Source: a virus
IMG/VR virus record: IMGVR_UViG_3300013104_000071
Coordinates: 1-25,578 of that record
Length of the DNA: 25,578 nt
Strand: one strand, 5' to 3'
Positions 3,261-25,578 of this stretch are shown here, one piece after another. The position numbers and the translations under genes are program-made. The notes beneath the pieces were generated by a model. The model saw only the letters and a list, made by a program, of their open reading frames with translations. It had not been told where the DNA came from and did no database searches. Position 1 is the first letter of the stretch; every line of letters begins with the position of its first letter.

Positions 3261-5783
3261 CTAAAAGTCCTCTTCCTCATCGGAATTGATGTTTCGTTCG
3301 GCTAGCCATTTGCGCACTTTTGTCGGGTCAACCGCCATGCCGCCATCGAACATTGAGCGAAATTTGTCGGGGTTTCGGCTGTAAAAACGCTGACGAACAC
3401 CCTCGATTTTTATCCGACCCAACGAGAAAAAACCCAAAATTTCGAGCGTTCTTTCGAGCGCTTTCGTCTTCGGAATTTCGATGTCATGGGTCATTTCCAG
3501 ACCCTGCAGCAGCGTGATGTTTAGCAGATCATCGCTGATATCGGGGAACTCTTCGCTCTCGATGATCTCCATAATGCCGCGTGCATCGGTGGGCATTGCC
3601 GCATTTACCATGTGAAAAAACGCCTCGGTTTGCGGTGCGTCACCCTTTGGGTTGAAGTCCTCGGCCATCTCGTGCTGCAACAGCCAGTGCCGAATCGCTG
3701 GTGCCGAATCGTCCAGGGCGGCGTACAGATCAACGTAGTAGTCCGGGTTTTCCGTCTTGAACTCACGCAGTTGATCGCTGTTTTGCCACTGGCTGAATAG
3801 CACCAGAAAGCGCCGTTCGTTCTGGCTGAGCGGCATCGCGTCCCGGTAGTTGGTGAACAGCAGGTAGTTGGTGGTGTTCTCCACGTTGTACGGGTCGCGG
3901 CCCTTCGGGTGGATCTCGATAACCGGGTTCGTGATGAAAGGCTTCACGCGGTTCAACACGTCGTAGCGGTTGTGGCCGATCAGGCGGATCTCTTCGATGG
4001 CCATCACGCACTGGCCCTGCGCCCAGCCGGTGAACGCGCCCTCGAGGATGTGGGCGTTGCCCATCCGCACGTTCGGCAGGCCCATGGTTGCCGCCAGCAG
4101 AAACGCGAAGAACGACTTGCCGTCACCCTGCACACCCTGGATCAGCGGCGCATAGTTGATCCGCTTGCCTGGGTTCTGCACCACGTAGGCCAGCCAGTCG
4201 AGCAACATCCGGCGCTCTTTCGGATCGGCCAGCAGGTGGCGGATGTGCTGCTTCACGCGCTTGATGTTGGCCAGGTCCATCGGCCGGATCGCCTTCGGCT
4301 TCGGTGGCACCTGGTTCTCGGGGTAGGTGTTCACCAGCGTGGCTTCGTTATAGATGAAGATCGAGTCGCGGCCTGGCGCGTACATCCGGCCGTTCACCGT
4401 CGGGATCTTGTAGACGTTCAACGCCAGGTTGGCCGCTGACGACTGCGCCGGCTTGCCCTCGAGGATGTCTTTCTTCGTCATCGAGTGCCGATCGTTGATC
4501 GCGTTGAAGCCCTGCACAGTCACCGCGTACTTCGCGATGGTGTGATAGAAGCGGTCGTCGTTCGAGTCATACACCCAGTCACGGCACCACCGCGGCGTGT
4601 CCTTCGTGTTGATCTCGAAGGCGATCGTTTTCTTGACCTCGGCCAGCGGCACCTTCGCCCCGCTCAACACCTGCAGTCGATCCCGCGCCACTTCGGCGAG
4701 GCCGGCCCGCGTCAGGTGGTCGATCTCTGCAGACCGGGCCTCTTTCGCAGCTTCGTTCCACTCGGTGCGGTCTTTCGCCTGGGCGAACTTGTCGCGCAGA
4801 TCCGATGCCGTCTCGAGCGCCTTCGTTTCGGCAGCCTCTTTGGCCAGCTTGAGGATCAGACGCGCAGTGACCGGCGCCCGTTGCTTGTCCTCGATGTCGA
4901 AGGTCTTCCACTTGCGGTCGAGCGCTTCGCGATCGTAGTTGTTGGCCGACTCAGACCACTCGTGCCACATCTCCCGGCCGATGTCCTCACCGTCGTACTG
5001 GTGGAACAGGCACATGCCGATCTGGAACCAGACGTCGTAATCGTCGTTGCCCGGGACCATCATCAGCCGGCGCTGCAGGTCAGGCTGTGACATGTCGATC
5101 GGGTGGGCGTCGGCAGCGAACGGGTCATTGCGATCGACCTGGCCCGCCGCGGCTTGACGACGGAGGATCGAACCCTGCGCTTCCTTCCAGCCACGCGCCT
5201 GGGCACCCTCCTCGAACATCTCGATGAGTTCCTGCGCCTTGTCCTTGTCGAACTTCGGCAGATCCGACGCCTCGACGGTGGCCGGCTGCTCGGCAGTGAT
5301 CCACTTGTACGGCTTGTTCGTGTCTTTGTGGATGTGGTACGCCACGAATTGCTGGCCGTCACCGAGGATCTCGATGCGGCAGCGATCACCCCACTCATCT
5401 ATATAGGTGCGTGAGGTGATCTTCGGAAACGGCGTCGAGGTGCGATAGAGCATCAGGCGCTTCGGCGCGTTGCCCACACGGACAGGCGACGGCCCCCACA
5501 ATTCGATGGCCTTGTTCTGCAGCTCGAGCGCGAAGTCCTCATCCGGAACGTCGATGTCTACGGCCGGCAGGTTCTTCGTCAGAATGCCGATCCCCTGGTT
5601 GCCGCGCCCCTCTTCCAGCCAACGGCCGAGCAACTTCGGCGTGGCGGTGGTCTTCTGCCAATCCTCGTCAACCGGCCCCTTCTTTCCGGCTTCGATAGGA
5701 ATGATGTTGTAGCCATTTGCAATGAGCTTCTCGCCATACCGTTCGAGAAAACCCCCCAATTTATTCCCCGCAAGTTCGCTCAT
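3261..5783 (-). CDS. Primase-polymerase / superfamily 3-type helicase fusion, 840 aa
   Basis: This protein probably primes and unwinds phage DNA at the replication fork. The N-terminal part (about residues 15-200) resembles a bifunctional primase/polymerase (archaeo-eukaryotic primase fold). It has an acidic pair at D76 and D78 (AVDIDVP), then NAPKRLMLYRT near 105 and IEILGDGQQFVAYH near 137-150. Residues about 245-295 resemble a PriCT-type domain (DYDVWFQIGMCLFHQYDGE). The C-terminal part is a D5/DUF5906-like ATPase, with Walker A GVQGDGKS at 550-557, Walker B CVMAIEE at 592-598 and the SF3 motif C Asn in LLFTN near 646. It ends in an acidic tip, DEEEDF. The ATG at 5783 follows GAGG. It lies 7 nt downstream of the Cro-like gene in the same leftward operon, opposite in direction to the other replication genes. 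Its terminator is at 3223-3243. Confidence 0.9.
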   Translation of the reverse strand: MSELAGNKLGGFLERYGEKLIANGYNIIPIEAGKKGPVDEDWQKTTATPKLLGRWLEEGRGNQGIGILTKNLPAVDIDVPDEDFALELQNKAIELWGPSPVRVGNAPKRLMLYRTSTPFPKITSRTYIDEWGDRCRIEILGDGQQFVAYHIHKDTNKPYKWITAEQPATVEASDLPKFDKDKAQELIEMFEEGAQARGWKEAQGSILRRQAAAGQVDRNDPFAADAHPIDMSQPDLQRRLMMVPGNDDYDVWFQIGMCLFHQYDGEDIGREMWHEWSESANNYDREALDRKWKTFDIEDKQRAPVTARLILKLAKEAAETKALETASDLRDKFAQAKDRTEWNEAAKEARSAEIDHLTRAGLAEVARDRLQVLSGAKVPLAEVKKTIAFEINTKDTPRWCRDWVYDSNDDRFYHTIAKYAVTVQGFNAINDRHSMTKKDILEGKPAQSSAANLALNVYKIPTVNGRMYAPGRDSIFIYNEATLVNTYPENQVPPKPKAIRPMDLANIKRVKQHIRHLLADPKERRMLLDWLAYVVQNPGKRINYAPLIQGVQGDGKSFFAFLLAATMGLPNVRMGNAHILEGAFTGWAQGQCVMAIEEIRLIGHNRYDVLNRVKPFITNPVIEIHPKGRDPYNVENTTNYLLFTNYRDAMPLSQNERRFLVLFSQWQNSDQLREFKTENPDYYVDLYAALDDSAPAIRHWLLQHEMAEDFNPKGDAPQTEAFFHMVNAAMPTDARGIMEIIESEEFPDISDDLLNITLLQGLEMTHDIEIPKTKALERTLEILGFFSLGRIKIEGVRQRFYSRNPDKFRSMFDGGMAVDPTKVRKWLAERNINSDEEEDF

Positions 5784-16100: not shown

Positions 16101-17758
16101 TGACGCGCACAGCCAAGAAATCGAAAGGCGACGTCACTGTCGCAGACGCCACCCCGGCCAGCCAGCAGGCGCTCGGCGGCGGCCTGGAAGGCGCCAGTCG
16201 GATCGACCGCGAGGTTGCATTGTGGAACCCGTCCTTCTCTTCGCCTGACCAGATCATCAACCCGGGCAAGGCTCTGGCGGATGCTCGCGGCCGGGACATC
16301 GTGCAGAACGACGGCTACGCGACGGGGGCCGTGGCGCTGCACCGTGACAACATCGTGGGCTCGCAGTACCGCCTCAACGCCAAGCCGAACGTCGTCGCGC
16401 TGGGCGTCACCGAGGAGTGGGCCGAAGAGTTCCAGGTCAACGTCGAGTCGCGCTTCAACACGATGGCCGACTCGCAAGATTGCTGGTTCGACGCCTCACG
16501 GAAAAACACCCTGACCGGCCTGGTCCGGCTCGCGGTCGGCGGCTTCCTGATGTCGGGCGAAGTGCTGGCCACGGCCGAGTGGATCAAGGAGTACCGGCGC
16601 CCCTTCAGCACCGCGATTCAGATGATCTCGCCGACCCGCCTGAGCAACCCGGACGACATGCCGGACGATCAGCGCCTTCGCCGTGGCATGGCCCTCGACT
16701 TCCGTGGTCGCTGCACCTCGTACTGGATCCGCAACGGCTACTCGGATGACCCTTATGGGCTGACCTACCGCTGGACGAACGTCCCGGCCGAAAAGCCGTG
16801 GGGCCGCAAGCTGGTGTGCCACATCGTCGAGCAGTTGATGCCCGAGCAGAGTCGCGGCATCGCCGACATGGTCGCCGTCCTCAAGCAAATGAAGATGACG
16901 AAAAAGTTCCAAGAGATCACGCTGCAGCAGGCCGTCGTCGCCGCGACCTACGCCGCCGCAATCGAATCGGAACTGCCACCGGGCCAGGTCTTCGAGCAGA
17001 TGGGCGGGGGTGGTGTGGACCCGAACGCGCTGGGTGAGTACATCGGCAACTACATGTCGATGATGGGTGAGTACCTGGCCGCCTCGAAGAACATCGCCAT
17101 CGACGGCGTGAAGATGCCGCACCTGTTCCCGGGCACGAAGCTCAACATCAAGTCGCTGGGTGCACCAGGTGGCGTTGGCGACGGCTTCGAGCGCTCGCTG
17201 TTGCGTCACACGGCTTCGGCGCTGGGCCTGTCCTACGAACAGTTCTCCCGGGACTACAGCAACACGAACTACAGCTCGGCCCGCGCCTCGATGGGCGAGA
17301 CCTGGAAGTTCATGGCCTCGCGCAAAAAGATGGTGGCCGACCGGGTGGCATCGTTCATCTATCAACTGTGGCTCGAGGAAGAGTGGAACGCCGGCCGCAT
17401 CCCGATGCCCGAGGGCAAAACGAAGGCATGGTTCTACGAGCCTGGCGTCAAGGACGCACTGTCGGCAGCAACGTGGATCGGTGCCAGCCGTGGCCAGATC
17501 GACGAGCTGAAAGAGACTCAAGCTGCTATTCTGCGCATCAATTCGGGCCTGTCCACCTACGAGAAAGAGATCGCGCGTCTTGGCGAGGACTTCCGCGAAG
17601 TGTTCGAGCAGCGTGCCCGCGAGATGAAAATGGCGGGCCGCCTCGGTCTCGATTTCACGATGCAGGCTGAGAAGACAACGAGCGGGGCCAGCACTCAGGG
17701 TACGCTCAAGGAAAACGGCGGTCGCGACAACGCCGATAACCCCGACGAGGAATTGTAA
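16100..17758 (+). CDS. Portal protein, lambda gpB family, 552 aa
   Basis: This protein forms the dodecameric ring at the unique capsid vertex through which DNA enters. The length is close to lambda gpB (533 aa). Recognisable family stretches are NDGYATGAVALHRDNIVGSQ near residues 70-93, a long helical middle, and the DYSNTNYSSARASMGETWKF segment near 388-407, typical of this portal family. The N-terminal 30 residues are basic and probably flexible. The C-terminus is polar and acidic (NADNPDEEL) and may be trimmed, as in lambda. TAATG overlaps on both sides couple it to gpW and the protease. Confidence 0.93.
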   Translation: MTRTAKKSKGDVTVADATPASQQALGGGLEGASRIDREVALWNPSFSSPDQIINPGKALADARGRDIVQNDGYATGAVALHRDNIVGSQYRLNAKPNVVALGVTEEWAEEFQVNVESRFNTMADSQDCWFDASRKNTLTGLVRLAVGGFLMSGEVLATAEWIKEYRRPFSTAIQMISPTRLSNPDDMPDDQRLRRGMALDFRGRCTSYWIRNGYSDDPYGLTYRWTNVPAEKPWGRKLVCHIVEQLMPEQSRGIADMVAVLKQMKMTKKFQEITLQQAVVAATYAAAIESELPPGQVFEQMGGGGVDPNALGEYIGNYMSMMGEYLAASKNIAIDGVKMPHLFPGTKLNIKSLGAPGGVGDGFERSLLRHTASALGLSYEQFSRDYSNTNYSSARASMGETWKFMASRKKMVADRVASFIYQLWLEEEWNAGRIPMPEGKTKAWFYEPGVKDALSAATWIGASRGQIDELKETQAAILRINSGLSTYEKEIARLGEDFREVFEQRAREMKMAGRLGLDFTMQAEKTTSGASTQGTLKENGGRDNADNPDEEL

Positions 17759-19116
17759 TGCCGACACCACTGGCTCTCGCCCGACAGATCGCCCACCGTA
17801 CCAACCTCAACCCGGTGATGATCGCGCCGCAAGCCGACTTCGCCGCGGATCTTATCCAGCTCTCGCAGACCAACACGGCCGACGAGAATGCGCGCGTCAT
17901 CGAGAGCCGTGCCGATCTGGTCGCCATGTACGGGATCGACGGCTACGCCGAGAAGCCGTTCGCCTTCGCCAACGGCATCGCGGTCATCCCGGTTCACGGC
18001 AGCCTGATCAACCGCTTCACTCGTAGCTGGGGATTCGTCACCGGCTACAACTTCATTCAAAACCAGCTCCGCGCGGCCCTCGATGACGACGACGTGAAGG
18101 GCATCATCTTCGACTGCAACAGCCCGGGTGGCGAGGTCAACGGCCTGTTCGAAACAGCCGATGAGATCTACCTGTCACGCGGGCAGAAGCCGATGATCGC
18201 GATGATCGACACGGCCTCGTACTCGGCGTGCTACGCCATCGCCAGCTCGTGCGATCGCATGATCCTCACACCGAGCGGCGGGGTCGGTTCCATCGGCGCC
18301 ATGTGTATGCACGTCAGCTACGAGTCGATGCTCGAAGAGGCCGGCATCAAGGTCACGCCGATCTACTCGGGCACGCACAAGGTCGATGGCACCCCGTACA
18401 AGGATTTGCCCGAGTCGGTACGTGCCGAGATCCAAGTGGCGGTGGACGCTTCTCGCGCCACGTTCGTTTCGCTCGTTGCGCGTAACCGGGGGATGGAAGA
18501 AAAGGTTATATTTGACACCGAGGCGGCCTGCTACCGGGCAACCGAGGCGCTGGCCATGGGTCTTGTTGATGATGTAATGACCCCGTCGCAAGCTGCAATC
18601 CGTTTACTTAACGAGCTGAATGGCTCACCCGAAACTGAGGATGACGACATGACTCCAGAACAAATCGCTGCTGCCGCTCAGGCCGCTACTCTCGCTGCCG
18701 CTGCGCCTGCTGCCGCTGCGCCTGCTGCCGCTGCGCCTGCTGCCCCGGCTGTAGCTGCCGCCGCTGCAACCGATGCTGCTGCGCTGCAACAAGCCGAACG
18801 CACTCGCTGCCAGGGCATCATGAATTGCGAGCAGGCCAAGGGCAAAGAAACCCTGGCCAACCACATCGCGTTCAACACCAACATGTCGATCGAAGAGGCT
18901 CAACAAATGTTGGCCGCTGCGCCGGCTGCGACGGTTGCCGCTGCACCTGCTGTTGCCGCACCTGCTGCATCTGCCGATGACCCGTTCCGTGAAGCCATGA
19001 ACAACGGTCAGCAGCCTAACGTCGGTGCTGATGGTCAGCCGGTCAAAGCTGATGCTGATGCCGCCAACGACCTGCTCGGTGCCTTCGCCTTGGCGACTGG
19101 CGTAAAGCTGGGTTAA
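17758..19116 (+). CDS. Head maturation protease, S49/SppA-like (lambda gpC family), 452 aa
   Basis: This is a capsid serine protease that processes scaffold and portal during head maturation. The SppA-type fold spans about residues 70-280. The substrate/oxyanion region is CNSPGGEVNG (about 120-129), the nucleophile is Ser156 in DTASYSACY, and the catalytic Lys is Lys208 in YSGTHKVDG. The 52-residue Ser-Lys spacing equals that reported for lambda gpC (S166/K218). Residues about 298-452 are an alanine/proline-rich and glutamine-rich scaffold-like extension, including three exact AAAAP repeats, and an internal start at Met298 would make this part separately. The start overlaps the portal stop (TAATG). 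It is fused as in lambda C/Nu3. Confidence 0.92.
   Translation: MPTPLALARQIAHRTNLNPVMIAPQADFAADLIQLSQTNTADENARVIESRADLVAMYGIDGYAEKPFAFANGIAVIPVHGSLINRFTRSWGFVTGYNFIQNQLRAALDDDDVKGIIFDCNSPGGEVNGLFETADEIYLSRGQKPMIAMIDTASYSACYAIASSCDRMILTPSGGVGSIGAMCMHVSYESMLEEAGIKVTPIYSGTHKVDGTPYKDLPESVRAEIQVAVDASRATFVSLVARNRGMEEKVIFDTEAACYRATEALAMGLVDDVMTPSQAAIRLLNELNGSPETEDDDMTPEQIAAAAQAATLAAAAPAAAAPAAAAPAAPAVAAAAATDAAALQQAERTRCQGIMNCEQAKGKETLANHIAFNTNMSIEEAQQMLAAAPAATVAAAPAVAAPAASADDPFREAMNNGQQPNVGADGQPVKADADAANDLLGAFALATGVKLG
18649..19116 (+). CDS. Nested in-frame scaffold protein (Nu3-like), 155 aa
   Basis: An ATG at 18649, in the same frame as the protease gene, is preceded by GAGG (18637-18640) with an 8-nt spacer, a good internal ribosome binding site. 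Translation from it gives the C-terminal 155 residues: an Ala/Pro-rich repeat segment, a helical middle (AALQQAERTRCQGIMNCEQA) and a polar C-terminus (DADAANDLLGAFALATGV). In lambda the scaffold Nu3 is made exactly this way from the 3' part of gene C, and assembles the prohead before being removed by the protease. The evidence here is the ribosome binding site, the frame and the family precedent. It has not been shown experimentally for this phage. Confidence 0.75.
   Translation: MTPEQIAAAAQAATLAAAAPAAAAPAAAAPAAPAVAAAAATDAAALQQAERTRCQGIMNCEQAKGKETLANHIAFNTNMSIEEAQQMLAAAPAATVAAAPAVAAPAASADDPFREAMNNGQQPNVGADGQPVKADADAANDLLGAFALATGVKLG
18694..18738 (+). repeat. Three 15-bp coding repeats (AAAAP units)
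   Basis: Three identical units of GCTGCCGCTGCGCCT lie in tandem (18694-18708, 18709-18723, 18724-18738) within the scaffold segment and add flexible Ala/Pro linker. The copy number could vary by slippage between relatives. Confidence 0.85.
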
Positions 19117-22574: not shown

Positions 22575-23363
22575 ATGCGCAACCCAGGCGGCAAGAACTA
22601 CACGCTCGGCAGCGGCAAGCTGTACTTCGCGATGTACAAGGCGGGAACTCAGACCCCGGAAGGTTATCGCTACTTCGGTAACACCCCTGAGTTCACCAAC
22701 AGCAGCGAACACGAGGAACTCGAACACTTCGATTCCGACAACGGCCAACGCTTCAAGGACGACTCGGTCACGCTGACCAACAGCAGCTCGGGTGCCTTCA
22801 CCACCGACAACATCAGCCTCGAAAACGTGGCCATGTACTACCTCGGTGACGTGTCCAAGTACACCCAACTGGCCGGCACTGCCGTAACCGAGACCCTCGC
22901 GGTCAAGCGCGGTCGTTACTACCAACTGGGCGTCACCGAAGCTAACCCGGCCGGTACTCGCCACATCACCAACGTCAACTTCAAGATCGGCGTTGCGACG
23001 GTTGCCATTCCGGACAACATCGAGCTGGATCTCGAGACCGGTCGCTTCTACGTTGAAGACGACGCCCCGGGCATCCTTGCTGCAGGTGTTGATCTGATCG
23101 TGACCTACGACCAGGTTGCATACACGCAAGACCGCATCATCAGCAAGAACAACAGCATCGTCGGTGCCCTGTTCTTCGAGTGCACCAGCAAGAAGGGTCT
23201 CAAGTTCGACTACACCTGGCCGTATGTCAAAATCTCCCCGGATGGCGACTACAACCTCAAGTCGATGGAAGACTGGTCGGCGATGTCGTTCACCGTCGAG
23301 TTCCTGCAGAAGTCCGGACTCGAAACCGTCTACATCACCGACCGCGGTGTTGCTACCGTATAA
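22575..23363 (+). CDS. Major tail tube protein, lambda gpV-like, 262 aa
   Basis: This is the subunit of the tail tube. The protein is beta-rich with many Asn/Thr/Ser (FTNSSEHEELEHFDSDNGQR, VTLTNSSSGAFTTDNIS), as expected of tube proteins. Its C-terminal part includes GLKFDYTWPYVKISPDGDYN and MSFTVEFLQKSG, a pattern seen in siphophage tube proteins. The length is near lambda gpV (246 aa). There is no obvious C-terminal Ig-like domain. The ATG at 22575 follows AGAGG and the gene uses highly preferred codons, consistent with high expression. It is followed within 12 bp by the chaperone gene. Confidence 0.85.
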   Translation: MRNPGGKNYTLGSGKLYFAMYKAGTQTPEGYRYFGNTPEFTNSSEHEELEHFDSDNGQRFKDDSVTLTNSSSGAFTTDNISLENVAMYYLGDVSKYTQLAGTAVTETLAVKRGRYYQLGVTEANPAGTRHITNVNFKIGVATVAIPDNIELDLETGRFYVEDDAPGILAAGVDLIVTYDQVAYTQDRIISKNNSIVGALFFECTSKKGLKFDYTWPYVKISPDGDYNLKSMEDWSAMSFTVEFLQKSGLETVYITDRGVATV

Positions 23364-23375
23364 GGAAATGCACCT

Positions 23376-23885
23376 ATGGCACTCTCGGATTTCGTCCCTG
23401 AGTGCCGTCAGGTCAAGGTTGATGGCAAGGATCTGTTTAGCGTCCACGCCATCAACCTTGAAACCCTGGCGGTACTTGTTCAAACCCACTTCCCCGACCT
23501 CGAACACGTCTTTGCGATCCTCATGGATGGCGAAGTCGAAGGCGAGACCCTTCCTGCTCAACTGCAGCGCATCTCTCAAGGCATGGCCATGCGTGCCCCG
23601 AGCTTGCTGGCCAACATCATCGCGGTCTGCAGCAACGAGCCGATGTCTGAAGCCCTGGTCAACAACGCCCGTCGTCTGCCCTTCCCGGTGCAGGTCGAGG
23701 CGATGATGCAGATCGGCACGCTGACCTTCGAGGAGGCTGGCGGCGTAAAAAAAGCAATCGAATCTCTGATCGTGCTGATGGCGACTCTTCGGATGAAGAA
23801 AGCCAGGGCGACCGCGGCGGTGGCGCCGGAGATTCCTACGAGTCAACCTTCCACCGTCTCTACGTCGGCCTTCGCCGTGACGTGA
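23376..23885 (+). CDS. Tail assembly chaperone, lambda gpG-like, 169 aa
   Basis: This is a chaperone that coats the tape measure during tail assembly. The first 125 residues are helical and acidic (ALSDFVPECRQVKVDGKDLF, EHVFAILMDGEVEGETLPAQ). After the frameshift site at 23747-23753 the zero frame continues as a low-complexity tail (AVAPEIPTSQPSTVSTSAFA) and stops at 23885. A minority of ribosomes should shift to -1 and make the longer G-T fusion. It lies between the tube gene and tape measure as in lambda. Confidence 0.85.
   Translation: MALSDFVPECRQVKVDGKDLFSVHAINLETLAVLVQTHFPDLEHVFAILMDGEVEGETLPAQLQRISQGMAMRAPSLLANIIAVCSNEPMSEALVNNARRLPFPVQVEAMMQIGTLTFEEAGGVKKAIESLIVLMATLRMKKARATAAVAPEIPTSQPSTVSTSAFAVT
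23731..23753 (+). promoter_or_regulatory. Programmed -1 frameshift signal (SD-like stimulator plus A AAA AAA slip site)
   Basis: The heptamer A AAA AAA at 23747-23753 is in the X XXY YYZ register of the G-like frame (codons AAA AAA at 23748-23753). AGGAGG at 23731-23736 lies exactly 10 nt upstream, the same geometry as the stimulatory Shine-Dalgarno in E. coli dnaX. After slipping, the -1 frame is open from 23753 to 24091. I did not find a clear downstream hairpin by eye. Confidence 0.8.
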
Positions 23886-24094
23886 GTTTGCTGTTAGCTG
23901 AGGGGCACCCTAACGCTCGACGCTATCCTATCGGTATGATGTGGTCAGAAGCCCGGCTCTGCCGCCAACGGATTAACCACCGGTTGGTACAAGAGGTCAT
24001 GCTTATTCAGTCGGCGGTGTCTACCGTTATGGGTGGTAAGCCAGCGGCGAAGAACTTCAACGAATTGACCGATAGGATCGCCACCAGTGACTGA
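23753..24094 (+). CDS. Second tail chaperone frame (gpT-like), expressed by -1 frameshift
   Basis: From the slip site the -1 frame reads without a stop for 113 codons to TGA 24092-24094. It starts with an acidic, Gly-rich linker (DGDSSDEESQGDRGGGAGDS) and continues into a folded-looking part (YESTFHRLYVGLRRDVSLLL, then HPNARRYPIGMMWSEARLCR). The fusion with the first 126 residues of the upstream gene would be about 239 aa, comparable to lambda gpG-T (279 aa). The only stand-alone start inside it (GTG 23882) lacks a convincing ribosome binding site and would cut the conserved-looking YESTFHRL segment, so frameshifting is the better explanation. The end overlaps the tape measure start by 8 bp. 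Confidence 0.78.
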   Translation, partial: SNRISDRADGDSSDEESQGDRGGGAGDSYESTFHRLYVGLRRDVSLLLAEGHPNARRYPIGMMWSEARLCRQRINHRLVQEVMLIQSAVSTVMGGKPAAKNFNELTDRIATSD

Positions 24095-25578
24095 CCAGAC
24101 CCGTGATGTCGAACTTGTAATCAGGGCCAAGAACCTCACCAAAAAAACTCTGACGGATGTCCGCAAGGAGATCGAAGAGGTCAACGCTGCACTGGACGAC
24201 CAGGTCGAAGCCAGTAAGCGTGGTGAGGGTTCTCTCAAGGATCTGAGCAAAGGCTATGGGAAGCTCGAGGACGCGATGAAGGCGTTGCTCGGGCAGCAGG
24301 CCGTAATCAAGAACTTCGAGGCCCAGGCAGCTCGACTCAAGGATCTGCAGGATGCGCTCGGCGCGGCATCGACCCGCCTGAAAGACCATCAAGCCGCCAT
24401 GGAAGGCAGCGAGAAGGTCACCAAACGGCAAACCGCTCAGCTCGCGACCTACCAGAAGGCGGTCGAGAAAGCTGAGGCTGCCGTCGGCAACCAGGCCACC
24501 CGCCTCGCCGCTACCCGCAAAGAAGGTGAAGCTCTCGGCCTCGCGATGAACGACCTGGTCGGATCGCAGGATCGCTTGCTCGCCACCGGCCGCCAGCTCG
24601 CCATCGTCACCGAGAAGCAAAGCGCGGCCTACGACAACTTCGCAGCGAACATCCGTGACGCCAATCGTGCGCAGAAGGAAATGGCCGACGCTGCCGCCTT
24701 CCAGAAAGCCGCCGACGAGGCCGCACGGCTCAACAAGGCCGCGCAGTACGTTCAATTCTGGACCCAACAACTGGATCAGCTCGACGCCGCCCAGCGCCGG
24801 GCCGACGCCTCGAGCAACCTCAACGCCATGGCCGACAACGCACTGGCGGCGGCTCGCGGCTTCACCACCCTGGCCAACTCGACAAAGGCGTTCGTCAAGA
24901 ACAACCAGGACGTCACCCGGTCACTGCGCGACATCCTCGATCCGTCCCAGCAGGCCGTGGCCAACCTGAGCGGCGTTGAGGACCAGATCAACCAGGTCAA
25001 CTCGGCAGCACTGGCCGCCAACGGCCCGATGACATCCTACCGCCAGCAGGTCAAGCTGCTCGCCGACGCCAACAAAGCGTTGTCCGGCACCGCCAGCGGC
25101 ATCGACACGTTCCGTCAGCAGGTCACCGCGTTGCGTGCGGCCCGCGAGGAGTTCGTGCGCAACCGTACAGCGCTGCGCGATTACGCCGCCAGCGTGCGTT
25201 CGGCCGATCAGCCTACCGCTGAGATGGCTGCCGAGCTGAAACGCCTAGAATCGGCGCTGGCGGCCTCAGCCACGGCCTACCAAACCCAGGCCGCTGCCGC
25301 CCGCACGACCCAGGCCACATTGCGCGCTGCCGGTGTCGCCACGAACGACCTTGCCGGTGCCCAGGCTCGACTGGTCACGTCGGCCCGCCAAAGCGTCACC
25401 GCACTGCAGAACCTCGACACCGCGGCGAAGCGGTTCGGCACGTCGGCCGCTGGCGCGAGCGAAGGGCTCAACCTGTTCGAGTCCAACGGGCGAACCGCGC
25501 TGTCGTTCATGCAACGCCTACGCGGTGAGGTGCTGGCACTGGCTGCCGGTTACGCGGGCCTGCAGGGCGCCGTCGGCC
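24087..25578 (+). CDS. Tail tape measure protein (partial, 5' end)
   Basis: This is the start of the long protein that sets tail length and lies inside the tube. The GTG at 24087 follows AGGA (24074-24077) with a 9-nt spacer and overlaps the T-like frame. 497 codons are visible and the frame runs open past the end of the window. The sequence is almost entirely helical and coiled-coil: an N-terminal RDVELVIRAKNLTKKTLTDV, then heptad-rich Ala/Gln/Leu/Lys stretches. The last visible residues (SFMQRLRGEVLALAAGYAGL) begin the first hydrophobic segment, common in tape measures. Opposite-strand frames here are shadows. Confidence 0.9.
   Translation, partial: MTDQTRDVELVIRAKNLTKKTLTDVRKEIEEVNAALDDQVEASKRGEGSLKDLSKGYGKLEDAMKALLGQQAVIKNFEAQAARLKDLQDALGAASTRLKDHQAAMEGSEKVTKRQTAQLATYQKAVEKAEAAVGNQATRLAATRKEGEALGLAMNDLVGSQDRLLATGRQLAIVTEKQSAAYDNFAANIRDANRAQKEMADAAAFQKAADEAARLNKAAQYVQFWTQQLDQLDAAQRRADASSNLNAMADNALAAARGFTTLANSTKAFVKNNQDVTRSLRDILDPSQQAVANLSGVEDQINQVNSAALAANGPMTSYRQQVKLLADANKALSGTASGIDTFRQQVTALRAAREEFVRNRTALRDYAASVRSADQPTAEMAAELKRLESALAASATAYQTQAAAARTTQATLRAAGVATNDLAGAQARLVTSARQSVTALQNLDTAAKRFGTSAAGASEGLNLFESNGRTALSFMQRLRGEVLALAAGYAGLQGAVG

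Follow-up and report, generated by a model that had tools for sequence, protein, structure and literature searches.

The DNA analysed here in its whole length, hereafter the window, is the 25,578 nt IMG/VR virus record IMGVR_UViG_3300013104_000071. It carries a set of tail genes in the order tail terminator, major tail protein, G, T and tape measure, and the tail-gene features described below all lie on the plus strand. The major tail protein gene occupies positions 22575–23363 and matches phrog_807 (E 6.5e-53). The tape measure protein gene (phrog_2335, E 2.8e-59) starts with GTG at 24087 and runs off the window (24087–25578). Between them, the tail assembly chaperone gene G (23376–23885) runs in the zero frame from ATG 23376 to a stop codon at 23883–23885 and encodes a protein of 169 aa, which matches the Pfam family PF23789 Pre_tape_measure (E 8e-34; 117 bits for a curated cut-off of 27) as well as phrog_5260 and phrog_11703. 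The T segment lies in the −1 frame (23753–24094, 113 codons and a stop codon) and overlaps the tape measure gene by 8 nt. Such an overlapping two-frame pair situated between the major tail protein and tape measure genes is the arrangement required of the G/G-T class. Another A AAA AAA run is found at 24141–24147, near the tape measure gene start.

The best matches of both the terminase and G are members of the Casjensviridae (Chi-like). The closest named isolate is Pseudomonas phage vB_Pae-SS2019XI (Maxdohrnvirus, Casjensviridae), with 59% identity for G and 71% for the terminase. Judged by the relationship of its terminase and tail genes, the source phage is a Casjensviridae-like (Chi-like) siphophage. 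A near-clade relative of the tail module (L194, the L-numbers being labels of the relatives' loci in the comparison set) lies inside a Pseudomonas citronellolis genome contig (NZ_FOLS01000028). This location suggests that the relative is a prophage and that the near clade infects Pseudomonas.

Within G, the codons GTA (23745–23747), AAA (23748–23750) and AAA (23751–23753), followed by GCA, place the heptamer A AAA AAA (23747–23753) in the X XXY YYZ register. The initial annotation had drawn attention to this heptamer and to the hexamer AGGAGG (23731–23736) exactly 10 nt upstream, and both readings hold: the register follows from the codon phase set by ATG 23376, and positions 23737–23746 separate the two motifs. 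The first codon following a −1 slip would be AGC (23753–23755), giving a K-K/S-N junction. From there, as had also been reported, the −1 frame remains open for 113 codons across the zero-frame stop and ends with a stop codon at 24092–24094, so that the predicted fusion would have 126 + 113 = 239 aa. The earliest start-type codon in this frame is GTG 23882, part of a GTGA (23882–23885) which overlaps the zero-frame stop, and the protein-like stretch YESTFHRLYVGLRRD indeed lies upstream of every start, as annotated. The phrog_11703 profile (232 positions) is matched by G at positions 1–130 and by the −1 frame segment at positions 129–226 (E 4.3e-30). Since a single profile covers both, the phrog_11703 family is itself a fusion. 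Searches of the PDB with the T profile gave no match; the G profile retrieved TAL effector repeats (E 1e-24), a result taken as a repeat artefact, since the score adds up as many as eight weak stretches in each chain.

Conservation of the slip site was followed in a first comparison set of 32 loci, in a wider scan of 80 distinct loci forming 31 clusters at 55% identity, and in a second scan queried with the T domain only and hence unable to favour the slip site. All 32 of the first loci carry a heptamer at the equivalent place together with an open −1 frame. In the 80 distinct loci, the heptamers are of the types A AAA AAR (76) and G GGA AAN (4). In the T-domain scan, A AAA AAZ or G GGA AAZ was present at 41 sites that were new and at 36 that were repeats, and five records lacked such a heptamer. 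In total, 121 distinct related sites have a slip heptamer of one of these two forms at the equivalent place, so this part of the alignment proposed in the initial annotation clearly shows conservation. The probability of "xxA AAA" arising by chance, once the amino acids and local codon use are taken into account, is ~10^-41 as a product over the 31 clusters, a value which assumes cluster independence and gives scale only. No X XXA AAZ heptamer is present in four distinct T-domain relatives (L158, the L177/L196 pair, L180 and L186). Three of these have a single-lysine A AAG at the equivalent place and the L177/L196 pair has G GGG GAG, which are possibly simpler slip sites.

The region from the slip site to the zero-frame stop (23753–23885) is dual-coded. 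In 78 tallied loci, the −1 frame of this overlap contains no stop in 2008 codons, while the +1 frame contains 173. The initial annotation had pointed out that stops in the −1 frame of related phages would speak against a shift, and none was found in these loci. In the T-only region, substitutions between the window and L003 are distributed 7/6/21 over codon positions 1, 2 and 3, as expected of coding DNA. The frameshift product is already annotated as joined in the Smarc1 and AH2 records and is named in those of FoX4 and JC01.

The observation is real, and the site belongs to the known G/G-T frameshift class, whose mechanism is itself well known. The best explanation of the whole, which the comparative evidence makes very probable, is a programmed −1 ribosomal frameshift of the phage lambda G/G-T type in a Chi-like siphophage. 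The initial annotation had likewise proposed that a −1 shift gives a G-T fusion of the tail chaperones, and comparison with relatives strongly supports this. The majority of ribosomes would finish gene G at its own stop to give the 169 aa protein. In a minority, the two lysyl-tRNAs on AAA AAA would shift one base backwards at A AAA AAA, and the slipped ribosomes would read the −1 frame to produce the 239-residue G-T fusion, ending just inside the tape measure gene. By analogy with lambda, in which G and G-T have described roles in tail assembly (PMC5009743), G would form a coat on the tape measure protein, with the T part of the scarce fusion serving to recruit the major tail protein. The analysis shows the site with its register and conservation, the coding character of the −1 frame and the dependence of T on fusion in relatives; we infer the slippage itself, its rate and this role in assembly. 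Several points count against the proposed shift. A AAA AAA is a weaker slip site in E. coli than A AAA AAG (PMC5009743), no 3′ stimulator is predicted, the GTGA at the G stop of the window could permit some independent T, and the four distinct relatives listed above lack the heptamer.

T could instead be a separate protein made by re-initiation at GTG 23882, a reading for which the GTGA over the G stop provides a site in the window, and which fits the short downstream ORF annotated in several phage records and the existence of phrog_9221, a family of such short proteins. However, residues that are invariant in the T alignment, including R40, lie upstream of 23882, the earliest start available in the window. 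In L015 the first −1 frame start codon is at position 77 of 108, and in L017 and L040 at 76 of 105, whereas the conserved core lies at ~35–38; in 16 loci the first start codon is more than 15 codons past the T core. T in several close relatives can therefore only be made as a fusion, and comparison with relatives thus finds the T frame both coding and available only as a fusion. Moreover, GTGA is not conserved in the near relatives L015, L017 and L040, and re-initiation gives no reason for the conservation of the slip heptamer. We consider it highly improbable. Less probable still is transcriptional slippage on the A7 run, in which mixed mRNAs would produce the change of frame. The site does have seven consecutive As, and slippage of bacterial polymerase on long A runs is documented (9 As; PMC5009743), but relatives carry A AAA AAG, A AAA AAC, G GGA AAG, G GGA AAA or G GGA AAC in place of A7. 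Because the heptamers that break the A run retain the two-tRNA (tandem) slip pattern, ribosomal slippage is preferred to transcriptional slippage, which is very unlikely.

Downstream RNA structure has no visible share in the predicted ribosomal shift. In the window, folding downstream of the slip site is at chance level, with z of 0.8, −0.2 and −0.9 for 35, 60 and 90 nt and of −0.52 for 77 nt. Over 80 loci it is near chance (mean z of 0.00 for 35 nt and −0.39 for 60 nt). No trade-off between the strength of the Shine-Dalgarno (SD) sequence and downstream structure was found, SD-poor loci being no more structured than others. Going by these predictions, conserved 3′ RNA structure appears to play no part in the shift, and the site thus falls short of a full dnaX-type signal. 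The "dnaX-like" description in the initial annotation fails as regards a 3′ hairpin, which is absent in the window and as a family rule.

The AGGAGG at 23731–23736 is a possible internal SD stimulator. SD stimulators of −1 shifting work at spacings of 9–14 nt (PMC5009743), a range within which its 10 nt falls. The hexamer makes up most of the codons for E119-E120 and the next base, and this Glu-Glu pair belongs to the conserved TFEEAGGVKK. It might therefore be no stimulator at all and reflect just the commonest codons for the pair in a phage rich in GC, with a low-rate shift driven by nothing but the heptamer. From the window alone, the chance of matching the SD as well as GAG-GAG-G does is ~0.3 given the peptide and codon use, and AGGAGG occurs five times in the whole window for 10.3 expected, i.e. 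without enrichment. Its conservation is patchy. In the near clade, the full hexamer is present in six of ten loci, L036 has GAAGAGG and L017, L037 and L040 have CGAGAGG, with GAG at the second position in all ten. Outside this clade, full AGGAGG occurs in few loci, and in none of the Chi-like SDVEE types or the Klebsiella types. A number of lineages lack an SD altogether. The 10 nt arrangement, for which the initial annotation had also proposed an alignment, is thus kept by part of the near clade and by few others.

Codon choice across the family was examined over 53 clusters by holding the amino acids constant and modelling codon context. A match of five of six or better to AGGAGG at 7–13 nt accounts for 48% of cluster weight against 31% in simulations, none of 300 of which was as high. 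SD affinity exceeds expectation at a window spacing of ~5–12 nt, the best z being −4.1 for the first set, −5.2 for an independent one and −6.0 for both combined. Right beside the slip site it is below expectation. Among 29 columns, the strongest outlier is codon −4 (59% G-ending, 35% expected). An SD-like choice of codons favoured at ~10 nt over two independent samples (z ~−4 to −6), together with depletion near the slip site, speaks against the peptide and codon use as the only source. On the other side, the signal is limited to codons −4 and −5 ending in G, similar scores are obtained with other G-rich motifs, two more codon columns reach a z of 3 or more, and control positions reach a z of −4.4. 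A further control probe, CUCCUCAUU, was set aside as invalid since the anti-SD core is still inside it. The first synonymous test, in which any position was allowed, gave no excess. This unrestricted test is misleading because Gly-rich codons before the slip site score as SD-like in simulations; an excess appears on restricting the position and adding codon context.

An AGGAGG-like element 7–13 nt upstream is thus modestly favoured by codon choice across the 53 clusters. On balance, these data incline us slightly towards AGGAGG 10 nt upstream being an optional element that raises the shift rate through pairing with 16S rRNA. That the Casjensviridae-like G-T frameshift is tuned by synonymous codons through an internal SD 7–13 nt upstream, with no 3′ structure, and so would represent an SD-only class, is a tentative proposal which we place just below an even chance. 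Codon use as the sole source of AGGAGG is a serious possibility, somewhat short of an even chance. The stimulator that the initial annotation had called dnaX-like therefore stands in part: its 10 nt spacing fits and there is a modest codon preference in the family, but codon use would yield such a match in roughly a third of cases, and AGGAGG is kept in only part of the near clade.

Among known systems, gp56/gp55 of Burkholderia phage AH2 (Ahduovirus, Casjensviridae) are closely comparable, with a −1 shift predicted at A AAA AAG and a stem-loop proposed from fold prediction (PMC3483164). G and T are of the same kind in both phages and precede the tape measure gene, the heptamers are of the same type, and the terminases are 58% identical. 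The window differs in having A AAA AAA rather than A AAA AAG, and AGGAGG at 10 nt rather than GGAGG at 7 nt. In vB_Pae-SS2019XI, the chaperone gene has a slip heptamer at the same codon (A AAA AAG), preceded by GAGAGG in contrast to AGGAGG, and its record has no frameshift annotation. The site shares with lambda G/G-T the gene order, the tandem slip and the in-frame fusion of a chaperone with a T domain, whereas the lambda heptamer is G GGA AAG and a possible SD lies upstream here; the likeness drawn is one of organisation. With E. coli dnaX (A AAA AAG, SD 10 nt upstream and a 3′ stem-loop), it has in common a lysine slip site and an SD-like hexamer at 10 nt. It differs from dnaX in having no 3′ stem-loop and in that the shift would lengthen the protein, while in dnaX it ends it, and the genes are unrelated.

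These results place an uncharacterised Chi-like phage among the carriers of a G-T frameshift that is conserved and in many cases not annotated. They point to a common annotation error, T being either overlooked or taken for a short gene of its own. If the SD is functional, the family, with its full, half-strength and absent SD sequences, would constitute a simple natural set in which to measure how phages tune chaperone ratios. Elsewhere in the window, a big gene of 840 aa, primase/helicase-like by eye, occupies 3261–5783 on the minus strand, opposite to the plus strand used by the structural genes. A Peptidase S49 prohead protease-like gene at 17758–19116 has a C-terminal half with a low-complexity tract rich in Ala and Pro (from ~18650).
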